A DNA stretch of 64,000 nucleotides from Monosiga brevicollis MX1. Its lineage: Eukaryota > Opisthokonta > Choanoflagellata > Craspedida > Salpingoecidae. Position 1 is the first letter of the stretch; the number at the start of each line of letters is the position of its first letter. Below the pieces are notes generated by a model. That model worked only from the letters and a program-made list of their open reading frames with translations. It ran no database searches and had not been told where the DNA came from. The stretch covers positions 189,573-253,572 of the forward strand of contig NW_001865045.1 in NCBI RefSeq assembly GCF_000002865.3. The letters are read 5' to 3'. Position numbers and translations under genes: made by a program. Positions 29,639 to 58,305 of the stretch are shown piece by piece.

Positions 29639-32600
29639 TCAAATATCAATCTCCCCGTCATCGGCCACCGGGGGCACAGCACTGTGGTTCAACTCAAAGG
29701 CCCGGGCCAATTCGGTCACACTCTTGCGCTTGCTCAGGACACCAGGGTCCATGAAAAGTCGGTTGGAGGAGGACCGCCGCGAGGCCTCCTGGGAGGTGGA
29801 AGCCTGAGACATGCTTGAGGACAAGGTCGGCTCGGGCTCGACGCCCATCAAGAGTGCTAGCTTGTCCATGTCATCCAAATCATCGTGGTGGTTGCGGGTC
29901 AACATTGTCGTTGAGGGCACGCGTGACGGGTCGGCCTGATTGCTATTCAGACTCAATGCAGAGGAAAGCCGGCGCGAGAGCTCTGAAGCACCGCTGGGAG
30001 AGCGGCTTGACAGGCTGGATGTTCGAGTCTCCACAACCCGGGGCGGGGTCGTTGTGGTGAGATTTGTGACTCGTGAGACGTTGGTCAAGGCCGGCTGCAC
30101 GGGCCGGGCCGAACGGACATCATGATACTGGCCTTGTTGATCCCCTGCGGGTTGCGTAGACGCCAAAGAGCGTTGCGAGTCGGATTCTGCGACAAGCATG
30201 TCTGTCGTCGTTTCGCGCACATCGTCTTCGCCTGCGTTGATTAATCGCACCGCGCGGAAATCACGGGGATTGGGGCCGCGATGCACTCCAGCGGCTGGTT
30301 GTGGTCGTGGTTTTACCGGTGGGGGGGCCTTTTTGGTTTGCGCAGAGGAATCGGGCATCCTGGGTTGTTGAGATGGGGCTGCACACGCGTTGGCCTTGGC
30401 GTCTGCTCTGCCCTCGTCGCGTGCTGCCTCTTCGACCTCCGACAACACGGTCATGGCGTCAGTCTCATGGGCTTTGACAAGATTGTTTGCCAGAGACAAC
30501 GCGGTGGTGGCGCCCTCACCCTCAACAAAGCTGTTCCGGCCATCTGGGGTTGAGTCGTCACTGGCCTGGGAAGATCGCGAGTGACGGGACACGCGCCGTC
30601 GGCGACCTCCACTGGTTAGGCCTCCCGATGAGAGACGGCGATGCGTGCGCTGAGTCGTGCGGGGTGAGGCACCAGCTGACTGGGTGGGCAAGCGGTCCTG
30701 AGTGGTCTCACCATCCAGAGCTGCCTCGGCAAAACGTGCTTCGTGAGCAGCACGCTCAGCCTCCTCCTCATCCAGGTCATGATCACTTTCGTACAGCGTC
30801 TCGGAGAGCTTGGGACCTTGATCGCAGCCCCGCTCATCATCTGACAAGGCCTCGTAGACCATGGAGCGCATAGACTTGAGCTTGCGGCGGCGATAGGAAC
30901 GTGAGAAGCCCGAGTAGATGGAGCGCGAAGCTGATGTGAGGCTCTCCTCCTCGGCATCCATGAGCCACTGGTCTTCGTCCAAGTCATCATCCCCGCTGGC
31001 CTCGAGAAGTGTGCCATCCTCAGTCTCGTCATCGGGGTCGAGCGCCAGTGCTGGTGCACCGCTTTCAGCCACGTCGTCATCCAAGGATGAGACGGCAGCA
31101 TCGGCCTCGCGCCCAGCCATGCCAGATTGATGGGCCTCCAAAAGTCGCTTGTAGTCGGCGACTTCCTCCTCTTGCAGCTCCATTAGGCACTCGTGCACTG
31201 TACAGCCGTCGGAAAAATTGGGATTGAAAAGAAAGCGCCCAGAGAAATGGGTTGTGAGAAAGCAAAGAATGCTCAGAACCGCTTCATCATTGTCCACCGC
31301 CATGGCTGTGCGTGGGGAAGCACAACTTGACCTACCGTATTCTGCCTGCTGCGCAGGGCACAGGTACACCTCTTGCATATGGTTGTAGAAAGGCGATGCA
31401 ATGAGACTGAGGGGGTACTCGTCGTCGACCATGATGCGGCTGTGAACGCCATTGGCGCCCACCTCGACCAGCTCATACTCGGCGAGCTCAGTCAGGTCTA
31501 TCGACATCAGCCACCATGTAAAAGCAAGTGAATGGGAGATGCCGGACCTATATGCTTTGTTTTCGTCGGGTACAACGTTCCGGCCCAGTCTGTCTACACG
31601 TACCGATGCCAAGCTTTTTGAGGATGATGGACTTGACGCGTGCGGCGCGGTCAGCGTAGTTGATACGAACAGTCACGTGACGCTGCATGCAAAATGCGAA
31701 GCAAGGGGTGCAGACCCGTGGGTGAGATTCACGCTTCGGCTCGAGGTCAAGAAGCAAGCAGGGGATAACCATCGCACACCCACCTTCTCCTTGCACACTA
31801 GCAGGGTGTGAACACGGAAAATGGAGGGCATGTTGGTGGGTTGGGGCCCACCCGACATGGGCAGTAGGTCACGGGAGCGCCGGCGCCCAAAGAACCAGGA
31901 TTTGGCAGGTGCTTTGTGAACAGCCTTGCGCTTGCGCGGAAGGTGGCTACCCACGTTAACCTCCTTGATATTGGCAGCATCCAACTCTTTATGGGCCAAA
32001 TTGATTTTCAAGCTGATCAGCTCATGAACTAGATCGTCAAAGTGTGGCCGTTGTTCTGCGGGGGTGCGCCAGCACTGCTGCATGATGTTATACAGCGAGT
32101 TGGGACAGTTTGAGGGACGTCCTGGCGTGTTGCCTTCTTTGACCGTTCGCTTTGCTTCCTGGAGTTGTGATCATCACCAGACAGGTTAGAGTGAGTGTCA
32201 GTGACGTATGTATGGCACCAAGCGGGCAAGCAACGGCATGCAAAGCCTGGCATTCTATGCGTCTACGCCCAAGCCTTCCATCCTACTCGGGCCACTCTGC
32301 TTCAATGCCCGCACGTCTTGAACACACCTTATTGGTCAAGCCTTCGTAGGGCACACCACCCTGAGTGACAACCTCCCATAAGGTGATGCCAAAGCTCCAG
32401 ATATCTGAATATCGAGTGAGCATTTGCTGTTGAAAAACTTCGGGGCTGGTCCAGCGGATGGGGAACTTGGCCTTGCTGCCCTTCAAATTGCACTCGGGTG
32501 AGTCCATCTTGCGAGCTAGACCTAGGTCGCCTAGGACCAGGCGGCCCGAGTTGGCCACGAGCACGTTGCGGCAGGCGATATCGCAATGGAGATAGCCCGA

Positions 32601-33502
32601 GTGATGCACATATTCTAGACCAGCCGCAATCTGCAAGGCACAATCCAGGATATCTTTCTCCGACAGAGTGCAGCGCTTCAACAGGTCCAGGAAGCAGGCA
32701 CCCATGAGCTCCATGATCAGGAGCGGAGGATGCTGATTGAGCACGACACCGAGCAGTTGGATGACGTTTTGATGCTGCAGCTGACTCATGACGGCAGCTT
32801 CGCGGCGAAACTCGGCCAGAGCGGCGGGATCGCTCTTCTTGCGCATGGTTTTGATGGCCACCTTCTGGTCGTTGAGCAGACCCTCATAGACTTTGCCAAA
32901 CTTGCCTCCCCCAATGGTTTGACCAAGTTCGAGGTCCTGGGGAAAGAGTTCCCAAGCTTCCATGACACCCAGACGCTTGCGGCTGGCCACCATGGCGTCC
33001 ATCGTGTGTTCCAGCTGCTCCAGCGACATGGGCAGATCTTGCAAGTAGGCGTTCTCGCCCTGTGGAAGATGGTCGATTGACAGGCACATGAGAAAGGGAT
33101 GCGGCGACCGTACAATCCCTGTGCGGATACCATATTAGCGGAACCCACCCGGTGTCGACGAAAGCCCAAGGTTTCAAGACATTCATTGACCGTGGGGCTG
33201 GCCACAAGCTTCGCAATTGTCTGTACAAGGGAGATACGGCATATTGAATGGGACGTAGAGCGAAAACATGAAGTTCCTGCGAGGGAGCGTGAAGTCTAGG
33301 TTAAGAATGGGGGCAAAACATGAAGCAGGGGTCGCACCTCATTTTTGGTTTTGAGTTTTCGGTATTTGCTCTTGTCTGGGTGCTTGTAGAGGTTGTGCAT
33401 GACGGTGAGGAGGAGGCGCGTGGCCTTCAAAAAGACGGGCTCTGCCAGCGTGGCCTCCATGGCCGCGAGCGCCCGCTCATAGTGCTCAAGGTCGGCTGGC
33501 AT
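29639..33502 (-). CDS. Cytoplasmic tyrosine kinase with N-terminal PUB and C-terminal RA-like domains
   Basis: The first exon (ATG 33502) encodes LLLTVMHNLYKHPDKSKYRK, joined in phase to TIAKLVASPTVNECLETLGF: a PUB domain, usually a p97/VCP or HOIP-type docking module. The kinase follows (about 32960-32000): GGGKFGKVYEG loop, VAIK lysine, EFRREAAVMSQLQHQN helix C, YLHCDIACRNVLV loop, LGDLGLARKM, KFPIRWTSPEVF activation segment, SDIWSFGITLWEVVTQGG-VPYEGLTN and CWRTPAEQRPHFDDL. The tyrosine-kinase group is clear from IACRN and FPIRWTSPE. Two departures: HRD is HCD, and DFG is DLG; the catalytic Asp and Asn remain. Next, PSIFRVHTLLVCKE, RHVTVRINYADRAARVKSII and ELAEYELVEVGANGVHSRIM form an RA/ubiquitin-like fold. 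The last 500-600 residues are acidic and Ser-rich, ending KRKSVTELARAFELNHS...GEIDI. No signal peptide or membrane segment is present. Introns interrupt every domain. Confidence 0.82.
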
Positions 33503-40799: not shown

Positions 40800-41531
40800 T
40801 TAATCCGAAGCACAAGCCGAGCAGCGCATCAAACCATTTTCATTACAGGCGGTGCAACGAAGGGCCACCATATCGCCAAAGTGCGCCGTCATCGAGCGCT
40901 TGTCGCCGCCGCACCAGGTGCACGGCACAAAGCGGCGATCGCCACATTCCCCACAAACGCCATGCTGCCCCAATTCTGTGCGCGGAACCGGTGCTAGCAA
41001 GGCAGCTAGCTTGCCCGTTTCATGCATACGCTCAACCGTCGAAGCATCACCGAGCAAATCACCATTGAAGAAGACAACCGGTGGTTGCACGCCTGGCGCC
41101 CGCTCCGAAAGTTCTTCCTGTATGTCTTTGCTCAGCGCCATGTCTCGCTCTTCAAAGGGCACGCGATAGCCTTGAAATAGACTGCGCATTTGACGACATG
41201 CTTGGCCTACGGCGCGCACTACTGAGAAAGAGGACGTATACAAGACGATTTTGCCGCCGAGCTCCTCTCCCACACGGGCTTCAAGATCGCGCAGAAGGTC
41301 TGCTTTGGAGATTGTCGTCTTGAGGGAGCGCTCAGCTCTCTGCAGGAGATTGCTCTTGGTCTTGCGCACCAGTCCAGCAGTGGCTGGGATTGATGATCGC
41401 CGTCGCCGCTCTGATCGTGATAAAGGGCGCTCCAACTCCGATGGGGTCGTGGCTGGAGGCGCTGCGTATGAGAGAGCTAGTTGCTGTACTCGTCCCACCA
41501 AAGGTAAAGAGTCACGCCGGCTGGAACGGCG
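40800..41531 (-). CDS. GRXCR1-like glutaredoxin-domain cysteine-rich protein (5' end incomplete)
   Basis: The glutaredoxin fold begins at KIVLYTSSFSVVRAVGQACR (about 41255) and continues through RSLFQGYRVPFEERDMALSK, PPVVFFNGDLLGDASTVERM (cis-Pro and GG-like loop) and ETGKLAALLAPV. It ends with four Cys pairs, CGEC, CTWC, CTAC and CSAC, inside FVPCTWCGGDKRSM and VALRCTACNENGLMRCSAC. This is the animal GRXCR1/plant GRXC-like cysteine-rich arrangement; in vertebrates GRXCR1 acts in stereocilia. The usual CxxC redox site is absent (TSSF), so thiol exchange is unlikely. The exon begins after an acceptor at 41531 (gtgacag); no in-frame ATG lies before the domain, so a first exon upstream is missing. 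The first 80 residues (RSERRRRSSIPATAG) are basic and disordered. Confidence 0.8.
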   Translation of the reverse strand, partial: RRSSRRDSLPLVGRVQQLALSYAAPPATTPSELERPLSRSERRRRSSIPATAGLVRKTKSNLLQRAERSLKTTISKADLLRDLEARVGEELGGKIVLYTSSFSVVRAVGQACRQMRSLFQGYRVPFEERDMALSKDIQEELSERAPGVQPPVVFFNGDLLGDASTVERMHETGKLAALLAPVPRTELGQHGVCGECGDRRFVPCTWCGGDKRSMTAHFGDMVALRCTACNENGLMRCSACASD

Positions 41532-41756
41532 CTGTCACATAGGTGCGAATACATGGAGTATGAGGGTCAAGAAGCTGGGGTTGAGCAGATCCGTTGGGCA
41601 AAGAGAAACCGACAGTGCTCCTATGCCAATTCTTTCACATTTAACTTTTTTTTTTTTTTTTTTTTTTTTTTGTGGAGGGGCTGTAATTATTTATTTTTGA
41701 CCCTGACTGTCTGATCTCATTTGTTTTAGGCACAACCACATCGCTTCCCGAGTCGT
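41532..41756. other. Short intergenic stretch with poly(T) and a minus-strand AATAAA
   Basis: The gap between the two minus-strand genes contains 26 Ts (41646-41671) and, on the minus strand, AATAAATAAT at 41686-41695. The GRXCR1-like first exon is expected here or beyond. Confidence 0.5.
41690..41695 (-). terminator. AATAAA poly(A) signal for the minus-strand NACHT gene
   Basis: AATAAA lies about 62 nt past the stop codon at 41757. A 26-nt A tract (minus strand, 41671-41646) begins 18 nt further on, at the distance where cleavage would be expected. Confidence 0.5.
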
Positions 41757-44700
41757 TCAACATACCCGAGTGGGACTGTCCAAGCGTGCTGCAGGCGTTT
41801 GTGCTGGCTCTTGAAATGCCTCAAGGCCCGCTGCCGCATTGTACACGGCGAGGAGGACGGCTTCTTCAAAACGCCGGAATGGCCGGTCCGGCAAGAAGCT
41901 GAACGTTTCGGCACATGCCAGAATAGGCTTGCCAAGGTCGGCAGCATCTACCAACTCTGCTACCTCCTATGGGCAATTGAATCACAAGTGCGGTACCCAG
42001 TCCGTATCAACGTAAACGTGAGATGAGACTGTGCTCAACAAATAAAAGCCTTTCCAGCAGAAAGGCCTGGCAAAGGTGGAGAAGACAACAACACAATGTC
42101 GCGAAAGTCGGCCCAACCTTGTAAATCAAGTCCCAAACCACCCAGCGTTGATCACCGTCGTCAAAGATGACATGACCCTCGTTTCCATTGGTCTGCCCAG
42201 AGAGACTGGCGTCCCATGCTGACTCAAACAGCGGATGGCGAGCCACAACGCGCGTCCCTTCAGCGCTTGCCTGGCCCTCGGCGGGTGTCAAGGGGTGGGA
42301 GGTGCGCAGTACATCTTTGCTTGGCAACCAGGCTAGCTTTCCCTGATCTTTGCCATGTGTATAGCGAACAAAAGCCAGAGGTCCGTCGGCCAGGCCCGCA
42401 TGTTGCGGGGCCAGCTGGCCTCGAAATTGTTCCAGCATGTCGCGTGCAATGTCTTCCACCGTCATCGTACCCGGGACCAAAGCGATGATCGGCAACAACG
42501 AGAAAGCCGGTTGCTCCGGCGCCAGCGGTGAGGCCATGTCCTGCATACGAGCCGTACCTTGGCTAAAGTCTGCAATCATTGGCGCCGGCAACGGGATGGG
42601 CTGACGCGTCCACGGACATACCACTGTGGCCTCGTAGTGGCCGGCAAGCTCGTTCCAGCGCTGTGCAGCCGTGCACACCAGCTTCTCATGCGGTGGCAGC
42701 AGACGGTGGATGGCTCCGGCATCATCCCCAGCCACCAGCTCTCCACCAGGACCGCGTAGCAATGCACCAATTGAGGCACCGATAAACAGACGGGCAACCG
42801 GCTCCTGCCGATGAAAATGCCAAATTGTGACCGTTTGATCGTCACCAGCGCAAGCCAGATGACGACCGTCGCCGCAAAACACGGCGGCATATACGCGATC
42901 CGTATGCTGCAAAGTACCACGAAGCGAGAACGTGTGCAAATCCCACAACACCACGAGTCCGTCGTGAAAAGCAACGGCCAGGGTTGTATCATCAAGGCTG
43001 ATGTCTATGCCGTAAATGGTCGAGTTGGGAACGCCTGCGGGTGCGCTGACCTCCCCCAGCAGTTGAAGAGGCTCGCATTGATAAATTTCCACCTTGCCTT
43101 TTGTGGAGATGGCCAGGCGCCGAGCGCTCTGGCTCACTCGCATTTGCTGACCGTTGACGTTGCCGGCCGTGGCGACCTGTTCATCGTCAAAGGCATCCAC
43201 AATATGCAGGCCATTGCCGCTGAACGCCAGGTGACGGCCATCCGGAAAGGCAGCCAAGCTACTCGTCACAACTCGCGATGATACTGCCGCCTGAGCCAGC
43301 CCCTCTGCGAGCCGCGTATAAACATCTGTGGCACGGTCGTGGGTGAAAACGGCCAATTGTCCTCTGGCGTCGGCAATGACCAGGCGTCCGTCGGCCAGCT
43401 CGACGGGGTTATAGCCCAAGGCCACAAAGGGCGAGCCGTCGGCATTGCATAATCGACTGTGCAGCGAGAGTGCGGGGTAGTGCCAGAGGTAAACGCCGCG
43501 GGGGCCGAATTGGCCCGTGGTGAGGAGTAAGCGGGTTCCTTGCAGCCAGCAGGTACCCATGATGCCTTGGCCAAAGCCCTCTGGACCAGATCGGCCCTGA
43601 GTCGGGTGAGTTTTGGCCGCAGCTAGATCCCAAACGAGGGCACGTTTATCCCAAATGCCGCCGCCAGTCACCAGCCACTCGGCACTGAGATCCAGCCCAA
43701 AAATGGTCCAAGAGTGGCCATAGAGCTGCGCTTGGACTTCGCCAGAGCCAATGTCCAAGACGGAAATGCGCTTGTCGGCACCTACGGTAACGACAGTTGT
43801 CTCTCGCACAGCCAAATTAGTGATGGCACCTGTATGGGGCGTGGTCAAGTTGGGAGCGACCGGTAAGAGCTGGGTCCGGCTCTTCAAAGACATTCGACGC
43901 AAATCGCAGCCATCCACGACATATAACACTTGAGACGACGCATGCCAGGCCAGCAGACGCAAGCCCAGGAGACGTTCACGCGCATCAAGACGATCCGGGG
44001 GTAGATGAGCCAGATCCGCATGGGCAATCTGCGTCAAAGCCTGGCCATCCCATTGAAGGGCTCGCACAGCTGTTGGTTGTTCCAGCAAATGACCATAGGA
44101 ATATACAAAGACCACGTTGGATGTGTGATCCACTGCCAAACCCAGCGGCGTGCCAACCTGAGGTACAGCCATACGCACGTACACATCTTGATGAAGACTG
44201 GGCGTTGTGTTGAAACAAAGCCGAACAGGCCAAATCAATGCCATTTAAACATGGCGTTGAGTCGAACTTACATCCGTAAAACGGGCAAGCTCACGCCGAG
44301 CCTGCAGGTCCCAGACCTGCACACAACCCGGCGTGACACGCGGGGTTGTATTGGCAAGAGCAGCCTGTGTCTCTGAGCAGGACACTACGGCAAGATTGTC
44401 ACCTAGGAGGGCTACATCCTGACACGCGCTAAGTATCACAGCACCAAATACCACAAGCAGGCACATGTGAGCAGGAAGCCTTGCATTGCGCCATTACAAC
44501 GACACTGGGAAAAAAAAAAAAAAAAGATGGCTGCCCTCTAATTGGATGGCATCGGCATACCCAGCAGCACAATCCAGGCGGTGAAGGATGGATAAATCTG
44601 CTGCTGCGACGAGGAGAACTTGACCATCATCAGAGGCAGCGAGCAAACGCGGAGCTGCTCCGGCTGGCTCGGACGGGGCAGGGGGAAGCACGGTCATGTT

Positions 44701-47700
44701 GTTGATAGCAGCACTGGCAGCATCGCGTACGGCCTCCACACGACCCGTGGCCATGTTCCATCGTCGAAGCTGACCATCACGTGCACCCGTAATGAGTGCA
44801 CCATGAGCAAGCACGCACGCGTAAATAGGGGCTTTGTGGCCCGCCAGCTGCATGGAGCAGGCTGGCAATGCTTGAGGCTTATTCAACCATTGCAGCTGAG
44901 GGCCATCCTCACGTGCTAAAAGCTGTGCTGCTTGCGGCTGTAGGTGGCACGAGTCTGGGGCATTGAACGCAGCACAGAGAAGGGCGCTTGGCTATCAACA
45001 AGCCGGAGAGAAAAGCGGCAGCGTGGGGACACAACGGTGCAAGCCGATACGGCCAAGAATGAAGTGAGCACAGCGCTTTGTCAGAGGAAAGCTTCCACAG
45101 GGCTGTGAAGATGATCAAGCAAACAAACGCAGCCCGTGCATGCAAATCCGCATATATACGTACGTCGAAGCGCAGGAGGGGCAAAGTGTTGAGCAAGAGT
45201 TGCCAAGTTTCTTGAAGAGCAGCACGTTGTTGGTGCTGCAGGCATGCATGGATGTCGTCCAAAAGCTCATGCACCATGCCGTGCACGCACTTGGCGTCGA
45301 GAAACTCAAGCTGACAAAGAAGTGCAGCACAGTCATCATGTCGGCCTGCACGGGTCAGGTGGTACGGAAGTTGTGCGAGCTTTCGCACGTTGACCAGTGC
45401 ATCGTGCTCTGCCTTGCCAGCGGGAAAAAAGAGTGGCTGCTCGCGTAACCCGTCAGCCAGCAGGTCATGAACCCGTGCCAATACAAGCGCATCGATTTGT
45501 GTCACATAGCGCTGCTGTACAGCCTGGCGAATGTAGTCATGAAGAAAGTTGAGGCGCCCTGCAAGAGGGCGCAGGGATGAGGATACGGTGGCACAATTGG
45601 AAGCATTGCACCAAGCCGGTGGGACGATGGGTACAGAGAAAACGGGAGGTTGACAAGGAAAAGAGATTGAAAATTGGCCCACTCACCGCCACGATCGATG
45701 AGCAGGTGACGATTGACTTGCAGGGCCGCTGTGATCAGGAGCGGTGCTGGCTTGTGCGGAGAGCTGCGATGCCAAGCTTGCAGCAGATGATACACTTCAA
45801 TTTCCGGCACACCTTCCCGACTGACAAAAATGGCGCGCATGAGGGTTGGCACCAGCTCACGGTGCTCAGCAAAGGAATCATCGATTCGAGCCAACACCAT
45901 ATCCAGCAGCTCCGGCACAGCTGGCGCTGAAAGCAGTTGATCCAGCTTGTCATCAAGGCGGTAAAAATGACCAAAGGCAATCAGCTCTTCCAAAAGCAGT
46001 AGAAGATGAAGGGGATTACCACAAGCGGGGCTGGCCACAAGGCGCGCCAGTTGGTGTGGCGAGAGCTTTTTGCCGACGCGACCCAAAATTGTCTCTGCGA
46101 TCGCAGTCTTATTCGGCGCATCGAGTGGTTGGGTTTGAAGGGCCACGTAGTGTCGATGTTTGAGCTCGTCTTCGCAAGGGCCCGGCAGTGTGGACACGAT
46201 GAGTTGCATGTTTGGGGGAAGGTCCACAGGCAGCCACGCAAGGCTGTGCACTGTGGCGCCTCCCAGCCAGGGCAACTCGTCATTATCCAACTGGTTGAGG
46301 GCATCAATGACCACAAGTAGGCGGCCTTGGCCTTGGTCCTGGCAAGACTTGGCGGCCGAGCGCAAGAGTTCAGGCAACTGTTCAACCAGCGCTTCGGTGC
46401 TGGCACTGACGAGAAGCTGCGCGCGTTCAGGAGATGCGCATGCAGTGCACAGCCGCATCAACAGGTTGTGCAGGGCGGTGCTCTTGCCATCACAGCCACA
46501 AAAGTGGACAAAGACGCGGTCGCGGGGGTGGCGGGTTTCATGTGCCACGAGCCAGTTGGCTAGGAGTGCTGATTTACCACTGCCCGAGGGTCCGAGGACT
46601 GCCACGGGATTCTTGGCTGCTTTCACGAGATCTTGAAGATTCTGCCGCAAGGTATCGGCACCCAGAAAGAGAGAGCGTCGGGTGTTGGCAAAGTTAATGT
46701 GACTATTGGCTTCGTAGGCATCTACTGCGTGCGCGTCCGCGGCGGGGACGGGTAGGACGTCCGTGAGGAGGGCCTCAAGGAGGTGATACATCTGCTCGGC
46801 GGCTGCTTCGGGGACTGTATAGCTTTGCGTGTGGATCTGCAAGCTTGGTTGGGCGAGAGCGAGGTGCTTGACGTCCGTCTCAAGCTGTTCTCTAAGACGA
46901 GCGGACTCGGGATCTGGGTTGACATAAGCATGTGCATCGTCGTGGCCAACCCGTTCGGTGGCGAGCCGGGCATCATAGGCTGGGTCGCGGAAGAAGAACA
47001 TGGCGGGACGACGGTCTGGGGCATTGAGGCAGCCATGACGAAACTCCAACTCGGTGATGGAGCGGGACGCCCATTGCATGACAAAAGGGTAATTGATGGC
47101 TGCGAGTTTGAGATTGCCATCAAGCCACTCCGTGGCGGGGTTGCCTTCGATGCGATGAGAGCCGTAGCGTCGACCATAGAGACCGACAAAGACATCGGCA
47201 CGATCAATTTCGCGGAGACAAATGTCGAGGGTGCGCTGCTGGCTTGCGTCCTCAGCCGTAATGCCCCAACGCAAGTCGGTGCAGGCCAGAGCCACGCCCG
47301 CAGCCTGGCATTGATGCTGAAGGAGTGGGAGGTAGCGCTCAACAAAGGCGCGGCGCTCGGTTTCCAGGCCGGCAAAGGGCGAAGAAAGAAAGACGTTGAG
47401 CGTGCGTTCACGCCGCAGCTTGCCAGCTAGGTGGCTGCGCATGGCTTTGGATCCAAGCTGGGTCATGACATGATCACCAGGTGAGCTCGTGGGAGCCGTG
47501 GCATGGGGCGTGTTCTGGGACTGGGACTGAGCAAGGGGGCCCGCCTGGTTGATGGGCGCAAAGTGGCTGACTGAAGTCTGCGCGGGGTCGGAGCTGGACC
47601 GAAGAACCTGCTCCGTGGCTCGGGTGGTAGCGGCTTCATATTCAGTTTGGACGCTTTGTGGGATCATGAGTCCAATGGTGGCATACAAGGGCAAGCGCTC

Positions 47701-47973
47701 GGGCCTATTCAAAACCTGAGCCAGCTCTCCTACAAACTGAGACACGTTGCGGCTTTGTACAAACACCTGAATGCACCGACTGATCACGAACACGCCGACA
47801 GGTGATGTGCACAAATGCGGGTAGTGAGGGAGAGCGGTGAGCCGAGCGCGGTGTGCACAGTTGCTGGGTGACACGCAAGACGGGGTGCCGCACTTAATTT
47901 CAGCTGCCTCCAACGGCGCAAGCAGCGTGCTCGTCTGTGCACGGAACAGCGCAAACTTGTCTCCCTGCTCCAT
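41757..47973 (-). CDS. STAND NTPase: DUF4062-like, NACHT and WD40 repeats (TEP1/NWD/NPHP3-like)
   Basis: The start is ATG 47973 (MEQGDKFALFRAQTSTLL); the first intron ends at gcattcag near 47765. A DUF4062-like domain follows (about 47400-46970): NVFLSSPFAGLETERRAF, CTDLRWGITAEDASQQRT and CLREIDRADVFVGLYGRRYG, as in TEP1, NPHP3 and NWD1. The NACHT ATPase has Walker A LGPSGSGKSALL (about 46600-46567) and Walker B LLVVIDALNQLD (about 46322-46290), then VDLPPNMQLIVSTLPG and a winged-helix-like region (GNPLHLLLLLEELIAF). After an intron, RLNFLHDYIRQAVQQRYV leads to helical linker repeats and QLQWLNKPQ. From about 44860 down come about a dozen WD40-type blades, for example LAGHKAPIYACVLAHGALIT and LQHTDRVYAAVFCGDGRHLA with TIWHF. 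The final exon adds EVAELVDAADLGKPILACAE and ends at 41757. STAND proteins act as nucleotide-gated switches that oligomerise on ligand; the ligand here is unknown. It is head to head with its paralogue at 48517. Confidence 0.85.
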
Positions 47974-48516
47974 GCCGTCGTTGTACAGCGCTGTCACTTG
48001 TTGTGGTCGCCCAGGCAGCCACCACCACCACCATCAGTACCATCAGCATCAGCACCAATGTGAACCGGCACCATCAGCACCATCAGCACCAGCACCAGCA
48101 CCTTCAGCACCAGCATCTTCAGTAGCAAATGAGGCAACCATGTTTTTGTCAGCTTTTTAACAACAACAACAACAACGATGACCGCTCGATGTCAGATAAA
48201 GCTGGATCTTGACAGCATGTGTGTGCGTGTGTGTGTGCGTGTGTGTGTGTGTGTGTGTGTTTGATCGCGAATTTCTGATCAGTGGGTTTGTTGAAAGTGG
48301 CCGAGAGGGGGGCGGGAGGGGGGCAGGAGGAGGGGATCTTGGGCAGAGGGGGGATCGGGGGCAAGTGGCATGATCGGATCGGATCTGTTCCCAAGGCTAT
48401 TTGGCAAAGGTGGATTGGGTTCCTATAGGTGTATCTTATCACCGTGCGTGTTGCTCGCTCTTTGGCAGGCATTACCCCGCCCCACCCTCCAGCAACAACA
48501 ACAACAAAAAAAGGAC
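47974..48516. promoter_or_regulatory. 543-bp shared divergent promoter of the two STAND genes
   Basis: Start codons at 47973 (minus) and 48517 (plus) flank this region. It holds a CACCAT/CAGCAC repeat (about 48020-48120), ACAACA units on both sides (48160-48176 and 48491-48506), a (TG)n tract (about 48217-48262) and G-rich runs (48303-48360). No third gene fits here. Confidence 0.6.
48217..48262 (+). repeat. (TG)n tract in the STAND gene-pair promoter
   Basis: An alternating TG/CG tract near the midpoint between the two divergent start codons. Alternating purine-pyrimidine sequence of this kind can adopt Z-DNA. Confidence 0.85.
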
Positions 48517-51500
48517 ATGAGTGGGGCAACTAGCGCTGAGGCGCTGGGAGCCAACGGGCTAGAGGCTGCGCCTTACAGCGGCTGGCTCATGGTGAAGTTC
48601 AAGGGCCGCTTTTCTAAAAAACAAAAGTTTTTTCTCAAGTCATCGGCCCGAAGCATCGAGGCCTTTGTGCGCGATAGTGCTCAAGGCGGCGAGCTGGTTC
48701 TTGTTAGCGCGCTGGTGGCCCCGACAGCTGGCTTTCGGGCGCAACGCAAGGGGCGCAGCGCCGACGGGCCGTCGCGGCTCGTGGTCCGGGGCCGGAATGC
48801 TCAATGGCGCATTACAGGCGATCATGCTGAGCTTGATGCCCTTCATGCCAGCCTTCGCGCTACCGATGCCCCGCTGGAGGCCGAGATGAATGCCACAGAT
48901 GGAGATTCCCCGATCGCTATTGCCGGTTTGTCACAACCCATACCGATTATGTGATTATGTGTCTGCATCTTGGCTTGGTTGGCTTTTGATGCACGCCTTG
49001 TGCCTGCGCTTGCAAACGAATCGGCTCGACCCTTGCTCTTGCCCTCACCGCTACGTTTTGTTGGCAACCCCGCCTTGGTCTCTTGGTCTCGGCATGAACG
49101 CTACACGTGCAGGAGAGGTGAACACGTCGCCACAAGAAGCTTTGATAGTGCCGCTTCCTTCCGCCGGCCCTGGTACAGGTACTGAAGCCGAAGAAGTGAC
49201 GCCAGAGCAAATTACTACTTTGCTGCATGGTGGCCTTGATCATGGCCTGCGTGCACCACAAACCGCACTCGCCCTATTCATCTCCTCCACCTTCACTGGT
49301 GCGTTGCCGCCTTGCGCAGCGGCCGTGCAACAGTGGTGATCCTGTGCTAGGTTAAGCCAGCTTTATGTGTGTCAGTTGCTTTTGTTGATTCATTTTTGAT
49401 GGACGCCCGGTGGATAGATACCGAGCATGAGCGGAATGGCATGATCGGCCAGCTCCCGGCGCTCAAGGCGCTAGCCCGCAGTCTGAGCCTGGACCTTGAA
49501 TTCTCCGAGATGCGATGGGGCGTTACCCCCATCCTTTCTGCCCATCACCAGACTACCGCACTCTGTCTTCAGGAGCTGCGTCGCTGTCAAGCTAAATCTC
49601 CCTCACTCAATTTTGTGGTGCGTATGAGTGTGCGGGCGTGTGTTCAGGAGCGCACACGGGGTCTGCTCAAATAGGGTCACGCATTCACGCCTCACACTCA
49701 ACTCACACTGCTGTGTAGAGCTTGTTGGGAGATAAGTACGGCTTTCGCCCCTTTCCCAATCTCATTGCTGCCTCCGACTTTGAGCGGCTGGTTCCTCTTG
49801 TGCGCTCGAGTACAACCCAGGAATTGCTGCGCGCATGGTTTCGAGAAGATGCCAACGCAGTCCCTGCCATGATGGTGCTATTGCCCATTCATGAGCGCCT
49901 GCCTGAGTATCTTGGCAGTCAAGACGCCGCAGCCCGACGCGCTGCGTCCAACGCCTGGTGGGCTCAGTTTGAAGAGATGCAGGGTGCACTGCGTCAGGCT
50001 GCCCTTGATCTTCAAACTCAGGATGAAACTTTCAACGCCCGCCCCTTTCTCATCTCCGGTATTCATGTCGCCCGCGCGGGGCGTGTTTTTGGGTTGCTTA
50101 TTCAGTCAAGCTTTATGCTGTTGCCTGTGCATTCCTGGCTTGACTCACCCTGGTTATCCGGGTACCATCCTCCGTGTGTTTACCTCCCCCCTCGCAGTCA
50201 CGGAAGATGAGGTGCAGACGCAGCTTGAGGAAACAGCCGATGCTGGGCAATGCAGCGTCTGGTATCGCCGTTGCTTCTCTGATCTGGCGCAGGTGCCTCC
50301 TTCAGATCGCTGCCTCAAGCGCTATGTTGACATGACTGCCGATGGTCGCGACCACGATGCCCAGACCTTGTTGGCTGGGTTGCACCAGCGCATGATGGCA
50401 GCGCTGCCCCATATTCATACTTATCCGCTCACTTACCACCCGGATGAAGGTGTGCATCCTGCTCAGCCAGCCCACCAGCAATACCTGGAGCAGCTCTGCA
50501 CCGACTTTGAACAGCTTGTCACCGGTGCTCTGCACCAACTCAACAAGTCCATTGCCCCACACCAGCGAGACCCTCTCTTGTTAGAAGTGGCAGCCCATTT
50601 GCAATTTGCCGCACGTCGTGGCGTCAACCTGGTGGGCCGTGACACTGAACTTCAGAGTATCAAGGCCTTCCTGACTGCGCCCAGTCACGGACCCCTCGTG
50701 GTGGTCGGTGACTCTGGTTCGGGGAAAACTTCAGTCATGGCCAATGCTGTAGCCTCGGCAGCCGTGGAGCGGGAGAGCGGTACAATGGTCATTGCTCGGT
50801 TCGTGGGCGTAACACCTGCGTCGCGCACCGCACAGAGCCTCATGCACTCGATCTGCGAACAAATTATGAGGACGGGCCGATGGGCACCCAAGGGTGAAGG
50901 CAACGCCCCCGGTGAGCTGCCAACCCGATACTCTGACCTGGTGCCGCTCTTTTCAGAGGCCTTGGAAAGTTCCTCAGCCGAAACCCCTCTCATTGTGGCT
51001 ATTGATTCTCTCGACCAGCTCTCAGAGAGCTCAAACGGTCGCAGCCTGGCCTGGCTACCCATTGTCTTGCCTCCCCACACCCACTTGATTGTGTCTACGC
51101 TCCCACAGGCGCAGTACAAGTGTCTCCCCAGCCTGGAAAGTGCAGCAGCACGGGCACGTGCCTCCAACACAGAATTTGAGCTGCAGAAGCTCACCGTCCT
51201 ACCACTCAACGCCACGCAATGTCTGGAGGCCTGCATCATCTGGCTTCGCATGGAGCAACGATGCATCTCCGAGGCTCAGCGAGCTCGCTTGCAAGCTGCT
51301 TTTGAACAACTCTCTACGCCCTTGTATATGCGGGTGGCATTGCAGCTGGCACGCCATTGGTTCAGTTACACCGAGGTGGCCGCCTTGCCCGCGACAGCAC
51401 GCGATGCCATCAACGTACTCTTTGAGGAGTTTGAAAAGGAGCAGGGTGAAATTGTTGTTCGGCGGTTGGTGGGTTACTTTACTGCCACTGTGGGTGGTGT

Positions 51501-54500
51501 GAGCAGTGGTGAAATGCTGGATGTCTTGAGTTGCGATGATGAAGTGCTCAACCATGTCTTTGAGTGGTGGCTCCCACCCCGCCGCCTGTTTCCTCCATTG
51601 ATTTGGACTCGCTTCCGCACACTTTTTGCTCCGTTTTTGGTACGTGCTTGCGCCCACCTCATACATCAGTCCTAATACACCGAGACCTTTCTTGCAATCC
51701 CCTTTTCATGCCATCCGGGACTATCTTCCTAAGCTGTTGCCGTTTTTTTTTCTTTTCCTTTACTTCTCGCCCCCTTGCTACCCTGGACAATACGCAGACC
51801 AGCAGCACGGTTGATGGTGCGGAAATGATCTCGTGGCATCATCGCCAATTTTGGGAGGCAGCCGAGGCACGATACCTTGCCACAGCTGAAGATCGCCGAC
51901 TGTGCCATGCTGCGTGGGCCGACTACTTTTGTGGTCACTGGCATGGTCGTCCCAAGCCTTTTCATTATACCCAAGCACAGCTCAGTCGTTTTGAAGAGAC
52001 CATCGTGGAGACCGAGGGCTCGGATCGGTTCGATGCGTATAAGCAAGGCGTAGCTGCCGAACAGTTTCGTGATGTCCTTGATCAACCCATCTTCTGGCCT
52101 CAAAATGGCACACCTAATCGTCGTCGAGCTACTCAACAGGCCCATCATCTGCTGGCCGCTGGTCGATTCGAGGAAGTTGCTCGTGACATTCTGCTCAATT
52201 TTGAAGCCCTACAGGCCAAAGTCCAGGCTCAGTCCGTCTGGGACGTCTTGCGCGAGGCTGAACTGGTACTGGCCGAGTCACTTGACGCTGGACTGAAACG
52301 CAGCGTGCAGCTCTTGCTCGAGTTCTTGACGCTCAAGTCCGTGGACCTCAATTCGTCGCCACGCACATTGCCCGGGTTGCTTCACAATCACATTGGTTTG
52401 AAGCAGTTGCAAGAGCGCGGCGAAACGGTCATGGAGATGGCTCGCTTGCTGCAAGCGGCTGCCACCTATGCTCGCGAGCATCAGCTGCTACTGCCCAATT
52501 ATGCGGCGGGAACACTTGTGGGCGGACCGCTGCATCAGGTCTTCCCACTTCCCTTCTCCAAACGCCAGTCCGTCCCTGTTACTTCAATCCGCCTATCCAG
52601 CTCGCGCGACACACTGTACGCAAGTTACAACAACAAGTTTTCCACCTTCGATCTAGCTTCTGGAGCACTTGTGGGCGAACTTGAGCTCTTCCGGCATGCT
52701 CGATGCCAATTGTGCGAGCCACAGCAGCGAGTCATCATGTCACACCACAACATTCATGTTGAGGGGCAGGGTTACCAGCGACTTGAATCTGGGCGCATCG
52801 TTTGCCTCGAGCTAGCCACTGGGCGCGAGTGCTGGGCCCGTGAGTTGGCACAGTTTCACGAACTCGTTGGTGTCAACGAGCAGGCTGGGCAAGTCATCTT
52901 TCAGGACGGCCAGCGCATCGTGTTTGTGCAGATTGAAGATGCCCAGGAAATAGTCTCCCAAGATCTGGATGAGGAGCAAAAGCTGACTGCTGTGGCTTGC
53001 AACGATGACGGCACGTTCTTGAGCATGGCTCTTGAAACTCCGGTGGCTGATGGCGATGACGCCCTTCCCTCGACCGCCGTGTCGGTACTGCAGCTGCAGC
53101 AGCACAGCGTAATTCTTAACCTCGTACTGACAGACTCAGTCAAGTCATTGGCCTTTGCAGACCAGGATCGAATTTTGTGCATAGCTACCTCTGCCGGCTG
53201 GCGTGCGGTGGAGGTAGCGAGCGGAGCTACTGTGTCGTCATCTTCGACGGGCGCGCTCAAGGCGCTTGTGGGCTCGCAGTCTCATTTGTGTGGTCTGCTA
53301 CGCAATAACAAGGCCTGCTTAGCCGACGTTCGCACTGGTCAGGAAGTGCGTCAATTTCAGTGCGGTATGATGCCAGTGACAGCCATGAACCTTTTGAGTG
53401 ACCCTTTCCTTTGTACGACCGCGGGGTATGATGGCCAGGTGCGCTTTTGGCTGAATCGCGACGAGCTTGCGCTTGATCCTACACTACACCACAACGAGAT
53501 GCCACGCAAACTGTTCCACACGCAACACCATCTCATTTCATGGGCCAGTGAGCCATGCATCAAAGCGTGGTCCCGCCCTGGGCTGGCACACTATACTGAT
53601 CTCAAGCTCGCAGAAGCCCCCGCCGATGCATGCGCATTGCCCAACGATCAAGTCTTGGTTGCGATTCGGGACAATTTGTTAATTTGGGATTTGCCAACTA
53701 AGAACTGTGTCTACCAGCGCGCGATGCCCCGCCAAGTGGCGTCACTGTCCGCGCAGATCAGGCCAGCTGAAGCTGCCGGGGCCGAGGGTCCCGAAGGACA
53801 AGTTATTGTCATTGTGTCTTTTCGCCAGGGCGAAGGCGGAGCGCAAGTCTGGGACCTAGCTGCCGAAATGGCTGTGCAAGAGCATTTGCAAAAGGTAAAC
53901 CCCTTACAGCTGAAGCAAGCCAACGCCGACGAAGTGGCTGCACTGCCATTGCCCGAAACAGAAAACGGACGGCCTGCTTTGGCGCCTGCCTTGGTGGAGC
54001 GAGCGACACAAGATCCATGGTTGCGACATGCGTGCTTTGCCAAGGATCGTTTGAACATCAGTCAGTGGTGCACGGCACACTTTCCGCATCTTCTGGCCGA
54101 CCTTGACACAAGCCGAGCGGAGGTAGCCGTCAACAATCGGCATGCTGTCATGGCCGACAGAAGCGGCCACATCGTGGTACATGGCTGGGACCTCGAGGCT
54201 CCTGTGACTGGAACCCACCCCTTCACAAATGCCCATGAAACTTACAATTCACTTCGGGTGCAGGTGAACGATCGCGTCGTTGTGCTGACGTACATCAATG
54301 CAGTGCTGATCTACGACCTGTATTCGTTAGCCCTCTTGCGGGAGACAAAAACCGAAGGCCCCTACATCGTGGGCGTCGACGCCTGTGGTCCCGATCTATT
54401 TGTCTTGCAATTCCTGGGAGGTATCGTCTCTGTGATGAATGAGGAGGGCGAAATCCTCCTGACCGAGGCATCTCCATCGGGCCTTCCCTTTGATTTTCAG

Positions 54501-54770
54501 ATAGCCGGACCCTTCCTGGTGGGCCGCCAGCTTCGTCGGGCGGCAGTTTTTGAGCGCTCATCGACAGGACAATTTCGCGAGGTGGCTGATTTCTTGGCAG
54601 GGGGCTGGTTGCCTGTCTTTGAGGCCATGTGGGTGGAGGCGGAGGCTGAGAAGAACGACGAGCAAGTCGCTAAATTGGAGGTGTTCACAATTACGGTGGA
54701 GGGTCAAGTTATCCCGCTGACGCTATTGGCGCCCGCCAATGAGAATGCGACCGCTGTTTCGATGGCTTGA
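48517..54770 (+). CDS. STAND NTPase: PH, DUF4062-like, NACHT and C-terminal beta-propeller (NWD1/2-like)
   Basis: The start is ATG 48517. The N-terminus is a PH domain: YSGWLMVKFKGRFSKKQKFF, then RLVVRGRNAQWRITGDHAEL-DALHASLR. After introns in consistent phase come ALALFISSTFT, WIDTEHERNGMIGQLPALK, FSEMRWGVTPILSAHHQTT, CLQELRRCQ and SLLGDKYGFRPFP, which match the NWD1/NWD2 N-terminal module (about 49240-49780). The NACHT ATPase: NLVGRDTELQSIKAFL, Walker A VVGDSGSGKTSVMANA (about 50699-50740), Walker B PLIVAIDSLDQLSE (about 50985-51025) and LPPHTHLIVSTLPQ. A helical arm follows (QFWEAAEARYLATAEDRRL, HAAWADYFCG; RRATQQAHHLLAAGRFEEVA). From about 52550 to 54700 lies a divergent WD/PQQ-like propeller: VTSIRLSSSRDTLYASYNNK, VTAMNLLSDPFLCTTAGYDG-QVRFW, LLIWDLPTKNCVY. 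It ends at 54770. The ATPase and linker closely resemble the minus-strand neighbour, so they are likely ancient paralogues. A PH domain at the N-terminus suggests membrane phosphoinositide sensing, which is inferred. Confidence 0.85.
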
Positions 54771-56436: not shown

Positions 56437-58305
56437 GCTCTTTTTGCGATTCGTCAATCTCCAACTCACGTTTCCATGTTGGTGGAGGATAGGTAGTGCA
56501 ATGCGTGAATGACAAGAATAGCACGGCACCTCAGGGTGTGCTGACCGTACCCGCGGGCCAGATGGGCAGCGTGCGGTTGCTCGCATCACGTGCCACCAGC
56601 GTTGATGACGATCGCGCCGCGGCCAACGATAACGTACTGCAGCGCGCAGCGACAGCACTGCAAGCGGCCGAGCAGCAAGACCAAGACGCCTTCTATGCTG
56701 CTCATGTGGCAGCTTGTGCATCGCTGTACAGCAGTCGTATCGAGGTGGATGGCAACACGACGCTGGCTGCCATCGTCAACGCGTCCCTGTATGGCTTGAT
56801 GACGGCCCTTCGTGGGGAAGTGACGTATAGCACCAGTCCTGGCGGGCTGGCCACCAACACATACCATGGGTGGGTGATATCGAGGTCTTGGATGTATTGC
56901 GTCCAAGCCGAATCGCGTGCAGTGGCGCTGGGTTCCTAATCAATCGCCTTCTCGGGCGCTGTTTGTGTGTCATAGGCACACCTTCTGGGACGTTGAGACG
57001 TGGATGTGGCCAACGCTGAATCTTTTCTATCCAGACATTGCGCTGAGCGTGTTGACCTATCGCAGCAACCGCTTGGGCGCCGCGGAGTCTATTGCTCGCT
57101 CACATCACATGGATGGGGCCATGTTTCCGTGGGAATCGGCTTTTACGGGACAGGAGACGGATCCTGCACCAGGTACGCTGAATGAGGAGCACATTCAAGG
57201 AGACATTGCCTTTGCATTCCGACAATACTTTCAAGCCACGGGCGATGGCGCGTGGCTCAATTCCACGGGGTATGACGTGCTCGCCAAGGTGGCCGCCTTT
57301 TGGGCATCCAAGGCGCAGCGCAACTCTGATGGCTCGTACAGCATCCCCGATATCATGGGTCCGGTAAGCAGAGGATGTGGATGGGTGCAGGTGCAAGAAA
57401 AAAAAGAGGTGAAGATGGAGGGCGCGGCGCACGATCTCAAGCCACCTCATCCTCTTTCTGCGGGTTGTGTGCCCTCTCCACGGCAGGATGAGTATCATGG
57501 TGGTGTGACGGACAGTGTCTACTGCAACGTCATTGCCCAATTGAGCTTGCAGACGGCCCATGACTGGGCGGCCCGAGTGGGTCGTGCGCCCAACGCGACC
57601 TTGCAGACAATTGCGCAAAACCTCCGCGTCTTGTTCAACGCGAGCACCGGCATCCACCCTGAATATCTGGGCTACGATGGCTCCACGGTGAAACAGGCGG
57701 ATACCATCTTGATTGGCTATCCGCTGGGCTATAACATGACCGCGGCTGTACGGGCAGCAGACCTGAACTATTACCGCGAGCGGACCGATCCCCATGGGCC
57801 GGCCATGACCTGGGGCATGTTTTCAATCGGCTACCGGGATGTGGGGCTGGCAGCAGAGGCGGACGATTTCTTCCAACAATCGTTCGAGGGGAATCTGGTG
57901 GGGCCCTTTCTTCGATGGGCCGAGGTTAAGGGAGGTGGGGGTGCCTTCAACTTTATCACGGGTGCGGGCGGGTTTCTGCAGACAGTGTGGGCTGGCTACG
58001 GTGGTGCCCGTTTGACCGACGATGTACTGGAGCTACGGGCGCCAAGCCCGCTGCCCGGCAGCACGGGCTTGCTGTTGCGCGGCCTTGCCTATCAGGGCGG
58101 CCGTTTCACAGTCGAGGCCCGGCAAAGCCCGGCGGGTTGGACCCTGACGCTAGCACACGGTGGAGATGCCTCGTCGTTTGAGTTGGCCGTGGTTGCCGCC
58201 GCTGGCGTGATTCCAACGCCCGACCAATGGCAGCCCCTACCCGCTGGCCAGCCTCAAGCCTTTCAGATTGGCAGTGTAGTGCTTGTTCGCTCCAAGTCAG
58301 CGTGA
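55183..58305 (+). CDS. PGGHG: GH65-type protein-glucosylgalactosylhydroxylysine glucosidase-like enzyme
   Basis: The start is ATG 55183 with a signal peptide (MGRWTVILLFAALSQAQG). The best-preserved part is the (alpha/alpha)6 barrel from about 56980: FWDVETWMWPTLNLFYPDIA, HMDGAMFPWESAFTGQE, EEHIQGDIAFAFRQYFQATG, SIPDIMGPDEYHGGVTDSVY-CNV, YDGSTVKQADTILIGYPLGY, PHGPAMTWGMFSIGYRDVGL and GAFNFITGAGGFLQTVWAGY. The order and spacing follow ATHL1/PGGHG and acid trehalase. DEYH carries the likely general-acid Glu. In animals PGGHG removes glucose from the disaccharide on collagen hydroxylysine; acid trehalase activity is the main alternative. The N-terminal sandwich domain (exons at about 55331-56130) is weaker but readable (RLGALLDLERMSFSTMYTF). 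Introns contain (GA)n(TG)n at 55960-56001 and a T31 run at 56402-56432. The signal peptide points to lysosome or outside the cell. Confidence 0.85.
55960..56001 (+). repeat. (GA)n(TG)n(CG/TG)n compound repeat in a PGGHG-like intron
   Basis: A GA tract passes directly into GT and then GCGT units inside an intron. Confidence 0.85.
56402..56432 (+). repeat. Poly(T), 31 nt, in a PGGHG-like intron
   Basis: A pure T run about 60 nt before the acceptor gatag/GTAGTGCAATGCG; it may act as an extended polypyrimidine tract. Confidence 0.9.

Follow-up and report, generated by a model that had tools for sequence, protein, structure and literature searches.

A 64,000-nucleotide stretch of the genome of the choanoflagellate Monosiga brevicollis MX1 (assembly GCF_000002865.3, contig NW_001865045.1, positions 189,573 to 253,572 of the forward strand; hereafter the window, in whose own numbering positions are given) carries two large STAND genes, called here A and B, that diverge from a short intergenic region. 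The explanation that fits them best, and to which we give an even chance, is that A encodes a signal-gated TIR-like NADase (an enzyme that hydrolyses NAD+) of the TEP1 type which docks through a harmonin-type domain, and that B encodes an NWD1-type relative whose TIR-like domain is worn and perhaps dead. The domains, the catalytic motif of A, the placement of the two genes in different branches of their family and their spacing were computed from the DNA. The parts of A are each of a known kind; it is the combination of a harmonin homology domain (HHD) with DUF4062 and NACHT, together with the neighbour of A, that would represent a new variant.

Homology-guided gene models confirm the head-to-head arrangement, with start codons 543 bp apart. 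All 11 introns of the two models are of the GT-AG type, their borders having been set by the analyst, and the first codon position is the richest in G+C in 12 of the 13 exons and tied in the remaining one. The first-pass annotation, which had described two related, divergent STAND genes separated by 543 bp, was right in its coordinates, spacing and core motifs. It was also right that the ends of the two proteins differ, but it had not recognised the most unusual part of A, the N-terminal HHD.

Sequence comparison identifies the N-terminus of A as a harmonin homology domain, an adaptor type known chiefly from the scaffolding proteins of microvilli and hair cells. Residues 28-80 of A align with residues 28-80 of harmonin (PDB 2kbq; E 2.5e-6), with no shift in numbering relative to the start methionine, and three of the four matches to this region in a structure-sequence search are harmonin sequences, presumably human. 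The Pfam family USH1C_N matches an 89-residue joined piece of A (8.5e-6; 26.1 bits, the cut-off being 27), as well as a 904-residue joined piece (2.4e-4) and the unjoined frame (4.6e-4). In the opposite direction, the harmonin segment matches one of 1,022 open-reading-frame fragments of the window (E<=10), and it scores 30.8 bits on A, compared with at most 4.8 bits in 2,000 shuffles; as the control segment itself comes from the harmonin match, the comparison tests specificity and does not count as separate proof. Since the C-terminal half of the HHD lies in the same 843-codon open frame as DUF4062 and NACHT, the three belong to one protein. Across the genome (39.5 Mb in 57 contigs, after which the paralogues C26, C35, C47, C48, C55 and C56 are named), just two matches to a profile of the HHD reach E<=1: that of A and a weak one (0.76) in L020 (1990-5523, minus strand), a whirlin- or harmonin-like frame that also holds PDZ domains and, below the cut-off, a WH2 motif, and whose HHD lies at about residues 69-117. 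No HHD was returned by this search in C47, a paralogue of A.

According to the accessible part of a UniProt survey of HHDs (PMC8048344), the 2,939 hits fall into RTEL, CCM2, whirlin, delphilin, harmonin, PDZD7, PAH proteins (146) and 79 unidentified hits, which could include gene A. The harmonin-type HHD, at about residues 1-75, is what A has in common with harmonin, whirlin, PDZD7, delphilin, RTEL and CCM2. Unlike the known HHD proteins, A has no PDZ, helicase or other part that goes with an HHD; instead, its HHD heads a STAND TIR-like protein, an arrangement outside the groups of the survey. Among the matches listed in a search of titles and abstract openings, no fusion of an HHD with a NACHT or DUF4062 protein was found. 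According to the paper on HHDs (PMC8048344), these domains make direct contact with binding partners and modulate the domains next to them, so the HHD of A most likely sets its place or its partner. As HHDs are also reported there in RTEL and CCM2, the domain alone fixes no cellular location.

The DUF4062 domain of A is the second element of the proposal. The accessible part of a preprint (PMC13174449) shows DUF4062 to have a TIR-like NADase fold, with E1008 as the residue through which human TEP1 hydrolyses NAD+. The structure 11gz was taken to be the human TEP1 domain of that preprint because the residue numbering fits: among the offsets tried, one alone places arginines at 908, 954 and 976 together with a glutamate at 1008, and under it E1008 is the second glutamate of SVTEME. 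A glutamate stands opposite E1008 in three of three alignments in A (SITELE), in its paralogue C47 (AVTEIE) and in the bacterial protein L027 (SITEIE), and A also retains the arginines at R954 and R976. Judged on these residues, the TIR-like domain of A is probably competent for NAD+ cleavage. A and TEP1 have in common a DUF4062 with an SxTExE motif next to NACHT, an APAF1-like helical part and WD40 propellers; A differs in its N-terminal HHD, in the lack of TROVE and in an alanine in place of R908. The TEP1_2nd model stays under its cut-off in A (36.2 against 89 bits). As the TEP1_C propeller model passes not only in A but also in C48, which otherwise looks NWD1-like, it is not specific for the TEP1 type. 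In the same genome, L021 holds a major vault protein shoulder domain (1.7e-51), and vaults may therefore be present.

The N-terminus of B is likely a PH domain, to judge from a low-confidence structural model and from its paralogues. Pfam returned zero families at E<=10 for residues 20-115, hence no PH profile match; a PH profile built from two paralogue sequences gave P 0.59, and a genome search with the N-terminus of B gave no match beyond B itself. In C26, Pfam finds a PH domain (3.7e-10) in the position that it has in B once two frames are joined over an inferred intron, and none with the frames unjoined. A PH domain, perhaps of the same gene, also lies about 3.5 kb upstream of the DUF4062 of C56. 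Because of the joined-frame match in C26 and the domain upstream of C56, it is unlikely that the PH domain is peculiar to the A/B pair. It is thus probably not an odd domain integrated into one partner, and the odder domain is in A. A 1,843-codon frame in L015 (1823-7489, minus strand) combines half a PH domain, the first half of which lies just upstream (7489-7355), with NACHT, a DUF4062 that has degenerated and a WD40 array which, in contrast to the worn WD part of B, is strong (1.5e-51).

B was named NWD1-type because the Pfam winged helix HTH_NWD1 is over its cut-off, as it also is in C56 (7.1e-13) and C35 (3.7e-7). With NWD1 and NWD2, B would have in common this winged helix, a core of the AAA/NACHT kind preceded by DUF4062, and a WD-like half; its PH-like N-terminus and very divergent WD part are different, and the likeness was drawn through a Pfam profile of the winged helix. 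At the three arginine positions of TEP1, B has threonine, glutamine and lysine. It lacks the glutamate opposite E1008 in three of three alignments of the later comparison, and the paralogues C26, C55 and C56 lack it too. The TIR-like domain of B is thus probably inactive on residue comparison, a weaker claim than the competence of A.

The placement of the two genes comes from comparison with the other members found in the genome, eight being counted in all (A, B, C26, C35, C47, C48, C55 and C56). The DUF4062 of C26 is unseen by Pfam and was judged by alignment, and that of C48 by eye; the Pfam genome searches scored each exon separately, and thereby PF13271 matched only A and C47 and missed B. 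Within the genome, the sequence closest to A lies on C47 (DUF4062 47% identical, E 6.6e-24); B finds its closest relative on C56 (34% over 650 residues, E 7.7e-94), followed by C26, C55 and C35. A tree of DUF4062 and NACHT separates A, C47, TEP1 and L027 from B, C26, C55 and C56 with support of 99/98, TEP1 and L027 entering by their DUF4062 only (23% and 26% of columns). In an earlier set of trees the same split had 100/99 without L018 and 59/83 with it. L018 was dropped from the final tree, the long sequences L013, L014 and L017 were left out of the later trees, and L045 was omitted because its exons were not joined. In L013 (4478-6840), a NACHT frame is followed by a pentapeptide-repeat frame. 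A nine-row NACHT tree resolves nothing except A with C47 (92/99, not starred). We would therefore assign A and B to two branches of one old family whose nearest animal members are TEP1 and NWD1, the names of the branches being soft.

These trees bear directly on a local inverted duplication, by which A and B would be sister paralogues that later diverged. The two genes are adjacent and have the same core order, their NACHT domains are 29% identical (E 2e-15), and the NACHT domain of A alone scores almost as well on B as on C47 in BLAST (68.9 and 73.6 bits). Trees constrained to unite A and B are nevertheless rejected, with p-AU of 3.6e-5 for the concatenated alignment and 0.0085 for NACHT alone (1.4e-4 in the earlier set), and each gene finds its best match elsewhere, which makes this origin very improbable. 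The tree of NACHT domains proposed in the first-pass annotation as a check for sister paralogues thus answers in the negative.

The TEP1 side of the tree extends to bacteria. A scan of bacterial genomes yielded one relative among 49 pattern matches; L027 (3908-7573) encodes a Bacteroidales protein of 1,221 residues in which DUF4062 is accompanied by a WG repeat and by an ATPase-like core that stays below the Pfam cut-offs. The TIR-like NADase fold links A and B to Swarozyc and other bacterial proteins with DUF4062, and L027 joins it to an ATPase-like core. KpSwz carries a different auxiliary (sensor) part, in contrast to the WD-type ends of A and B. In L013 (4478-6840), a NACHT frame is followed by a pentapeptide-repeat frame.

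Several points speak against the reading of A as a TEP1-type NADase and of B as an NWD1-type relative with a worn TIR-like domain. The match of the HHD of A is slightly below the Pfam cut-off, and its first helix lies outside the match. Human NWD1, NWD2 and NPHP3, which also bear DUF4062, are inactive in vitro, and alanine at R908, the residue found in A, lowers TEP1 activity, both as given in the accessible part of the preprint (PMC13174449). TROVE is absent from A by Pfam, the five TROVE matches of the genome all lying elsewhere (one locus adjoins a stretch of N), which is why A is called TEP1-type and not TEP1. In B, a glutamate does stand opposite E1008 in two alignments (the pairwise one with 11gz and a six-row one); as this residue depends on the alignment, calling the domain dead is a judgement. 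HTH_NWD1 is below the cut-off in C26, C55 and C48. Lastly, TEP1 fills only about 23% of the tree columns, neither NWD1 nor NPHP3 is represented in the trees, and A as well as B passes the Pfam model NPHP3_N (25.3 and 28.3 bits against 24.8).

Whether the arrangement of the two genes has a meaning is a separate matter; A and B could act jointly. In the accessible part of PMC9528088, plant pairs of nucleotide-binding leucine-rich repeat (NLR) receptors mostly join different clades and are usually placed head-to-head. Accordingly, the distance between A and B in the tree neither supports nor refutes joint action; the first-pass annotation had named distant NACHT domains as grounds for refutation, and distant they are, but this is no valid test, plant NLR pairs mostly crossing clades. 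The likeness to RRS1/RPS4, RGA4/RGA5 and Pik-1/Pik-2 is that two STAND genes from different clades stand head-to-head and carry additional domains at their ends; the differences are the WD-type ends of A and B, a joint function that is here hypothetical, and the PH-like end, which seems common to the paralogues of B. A survey of choanoflagellates (PMC6040629) reports, in its accessible part, NACHT proteins with leucine-rich repeats but no CARD or Death domain.

One alternative, which the first-pass annotation had put forward on the model of NLR pairs, would make A and B a single receptor co-expressed from the 543-bp region, in which B, with its PH-like end and worn TIR-like domain, senses or restrains, while A, with a live TIR-like domain and an HHD, executes the loss of NAD+. 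We regard it as unlikely, despite the signs usual in plant NLR pairs (PMC9528088, in part) and the sensible division between an enzyme and a possible pseudo-enzyme. With eight members and about 8,700 genes, chance would give about 0.006 adjacent and 0.0015 divergent pairs per genome, figures reckoned after the pair had been seen; adjacency was computed for 8,500 and 9,200 genes, 8,700 being derived from the 11 genes per 50 kb stated for M. brevicollis in the accessible part of PMC4773876. On the other side, the same part of that source gives, for a sponge genome of a gene density like that of M. brevicollis, a median intergenic distance of 587 bp and bidirectional promoters in almost one third of genes. 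A spacing of 543 bp is thus short but not unusual in compact genomes, and the shared upstream region, which had been put forward as evidence of pairing, is weak evidence. No second such pair was found in the 9.9-kb stretches around the paralogues.

The same figures serve the view that A and B are neighbours by chance, two STAND genes in a dense genome that each act alone, which we hold to be only slightly short of even. The branches of A and B are distinct in the tree, no other member found has a second one beside it in its 9.9-kb stretch, and the spacing is ordinary for a compact genome; the low number of adjacent pairs expected by chance argues the other way.

A further possibility concerns the cellular site of A. 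Directly downstream of it, on the same strand, lies a gene like GRXCR1/2 (40803-41534, minus strand), with a GRXCR C-terminal domain (6.8e-13) and a glutaredoxin domain (5e-7). GRXCR1/2 is a stereocilium protein in vertebrates. Homologues of the Usher complex are expressed in sponge collar cells, according to the accessible part of PMC4942974. Taken with the harmonin link of A, these make the microvillar collar a reasonable guess for its location, and no more. It could further be supposed that A is no immune-type switch but a microvillus or collar component, whose HHD docks on Usher-type scaffold partners while the STAND core regulates assembly. The harmonin matches, the neighbouring gene, the sponge data and the presence in the genome of a frame with weak HHD, PDZ and WH2 parts would all suit such a role, but A keeps the catalytic glutamate and HHDs are not confined to one cell site (PMC8048344, in part), and we consider this role improbable.

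Table 1. Positions of genes A and B, of their exons and of the domains assigned to them
Feature	Position	Strand	Evidence
Gene A, coding region	41757..47973	-	7 exons, 1,801 aa; homology-guided model
Gene A, exons	47973-47894, 47779-45687, 45558-45164, 44991-44561, 44428-44272, 44157-42118, 41966-41757	-	
HHD of A, about aa 1-75	47635..47973	-	split by intron 47893-47780
DUF4062 / TIR-like domain of A	46735..47412	-	Pfam 2.6e-13; TEP1 TIR 11gz E 5.4e-16
SITELE motif of A, last Glu = aa 272, opposite TEP1 catalytic E1008	47044..47061	-	
NACHT ATPase of A (GPSGSGKS, VVIDALNQLD)	46138..46608	-	Pfam 1.1e-9
APAF1-type helical domain of A, across intron	44911..45370	-	APAF1_C 1.2e-4, 22.5 bits against cut-off 22.8
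WD40 propeller region of A, borders approximate	42690..44880	-	Pfam WD40 2.7e-15; TEP1_C 33.9 bits against 32
C-terminal region of A, including candidate last exon 41966-41757	41757..42690	-	no Pfam family; best Tudor_5 0.14, below cut-off
Divergent intergenic region, 543 bp	47974..48516	.	gene models of A and B
Gene B, coding region	48517..54770	+	6 exons, 1,849 aa; homology-guided model
Gene B, exons	48517-48925, 49113-49298, 49418-49617, 49719-50058, 50198-51639, 51798-54770	+	
PH-like N-terminal region of B (likely)	48574..48861	+	low-confidence model; PH among nearest structures; PH in paralogues
DUF4062 core of B, across introns	49277..49748	+	Pfam 1.6e-6, 28.7 bits against 24.7; TEP1 TIR E 4.7e-9
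NACHT/AAA ATPase of B (GDSGSGKT, VAIDSLDQL)	50695..51144	+	AAA_16 5.5e-14; NACHT 3.9e-5, below cut-off
NWD1-type winged helix of B, across intron	51400..51893	+	HTH_NWD1 PF25469 2.8e-12, 47.1 bits against 27
WD-propeller-like region of B, weak	52551..54767	+	WDR36-type propeller 2.3e-7, WD40 0.0043, both below cut-offs

Elsewhere in the window, tyrosine-kinase-like domains lie at 7259-8110 (3e-16) and 32286-33134 (6.5e-61), both on the minus strand, and a frame at 56878-58302 resembles glycosyl hydrolase family 65 (1.1e-44).

For the preferred reading, in which A is a gated NADase and B a worn relative, we infer the activity, the docking role and the gating as follows, the closed-then-ring model of APAF1 and TEP1 being drawn from the accessible part of the discussion of the preprint (PMC13174449). 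The propellers would most likely hold A closed, as in other APAF1-shaped STAND proteins, until a ligand opens it; the NACHT parts may then assemble into a ring, and the TIR-like domains thereby brought together would cut NAD+. The HHD could dock on a partner peptide or scaffold and in this way set the site of NAD+ cleavage. B, whose PH-like end may serve membrane or protein docking, would with its intact P-loop ATPase, winged helix and WD-like half more likely regulate or sense than cut NAD+.

The significance of these genes lies in what they offer to the study of the family. In the accessible part of the preprint (PMC13174449), the role and the trigger of the TEP1 NADase are proposed, not shown. 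A, with its TEP1-type architecture, catalytic motif and docking domain of a known kind, and found in a likely close relative of animals, would provide a testable handle on the site and partners of a STAND NADase, and it places the HHD, known from few kinds of protein, in a new context. The locus sets two branches of the family side by side, one with the catalytic motif kept and one worn. The boldest combination of these elements, which we think quite unlikely, would be a pre-animal paired STAND receptor in which B, its TIR-like domain dead, would use its PH-like and WD-like ends to sense or restrain, while A, placed by its HHD at the bacteria-catching microvillar collar, hydrolyses NAD+. If A and B do work together, they would be a paired receptor outside plants; and if the bolder proposal were true, the logic of NLR pairs would have evolved independently of plants, from TEP1- and NWD1-type parts.

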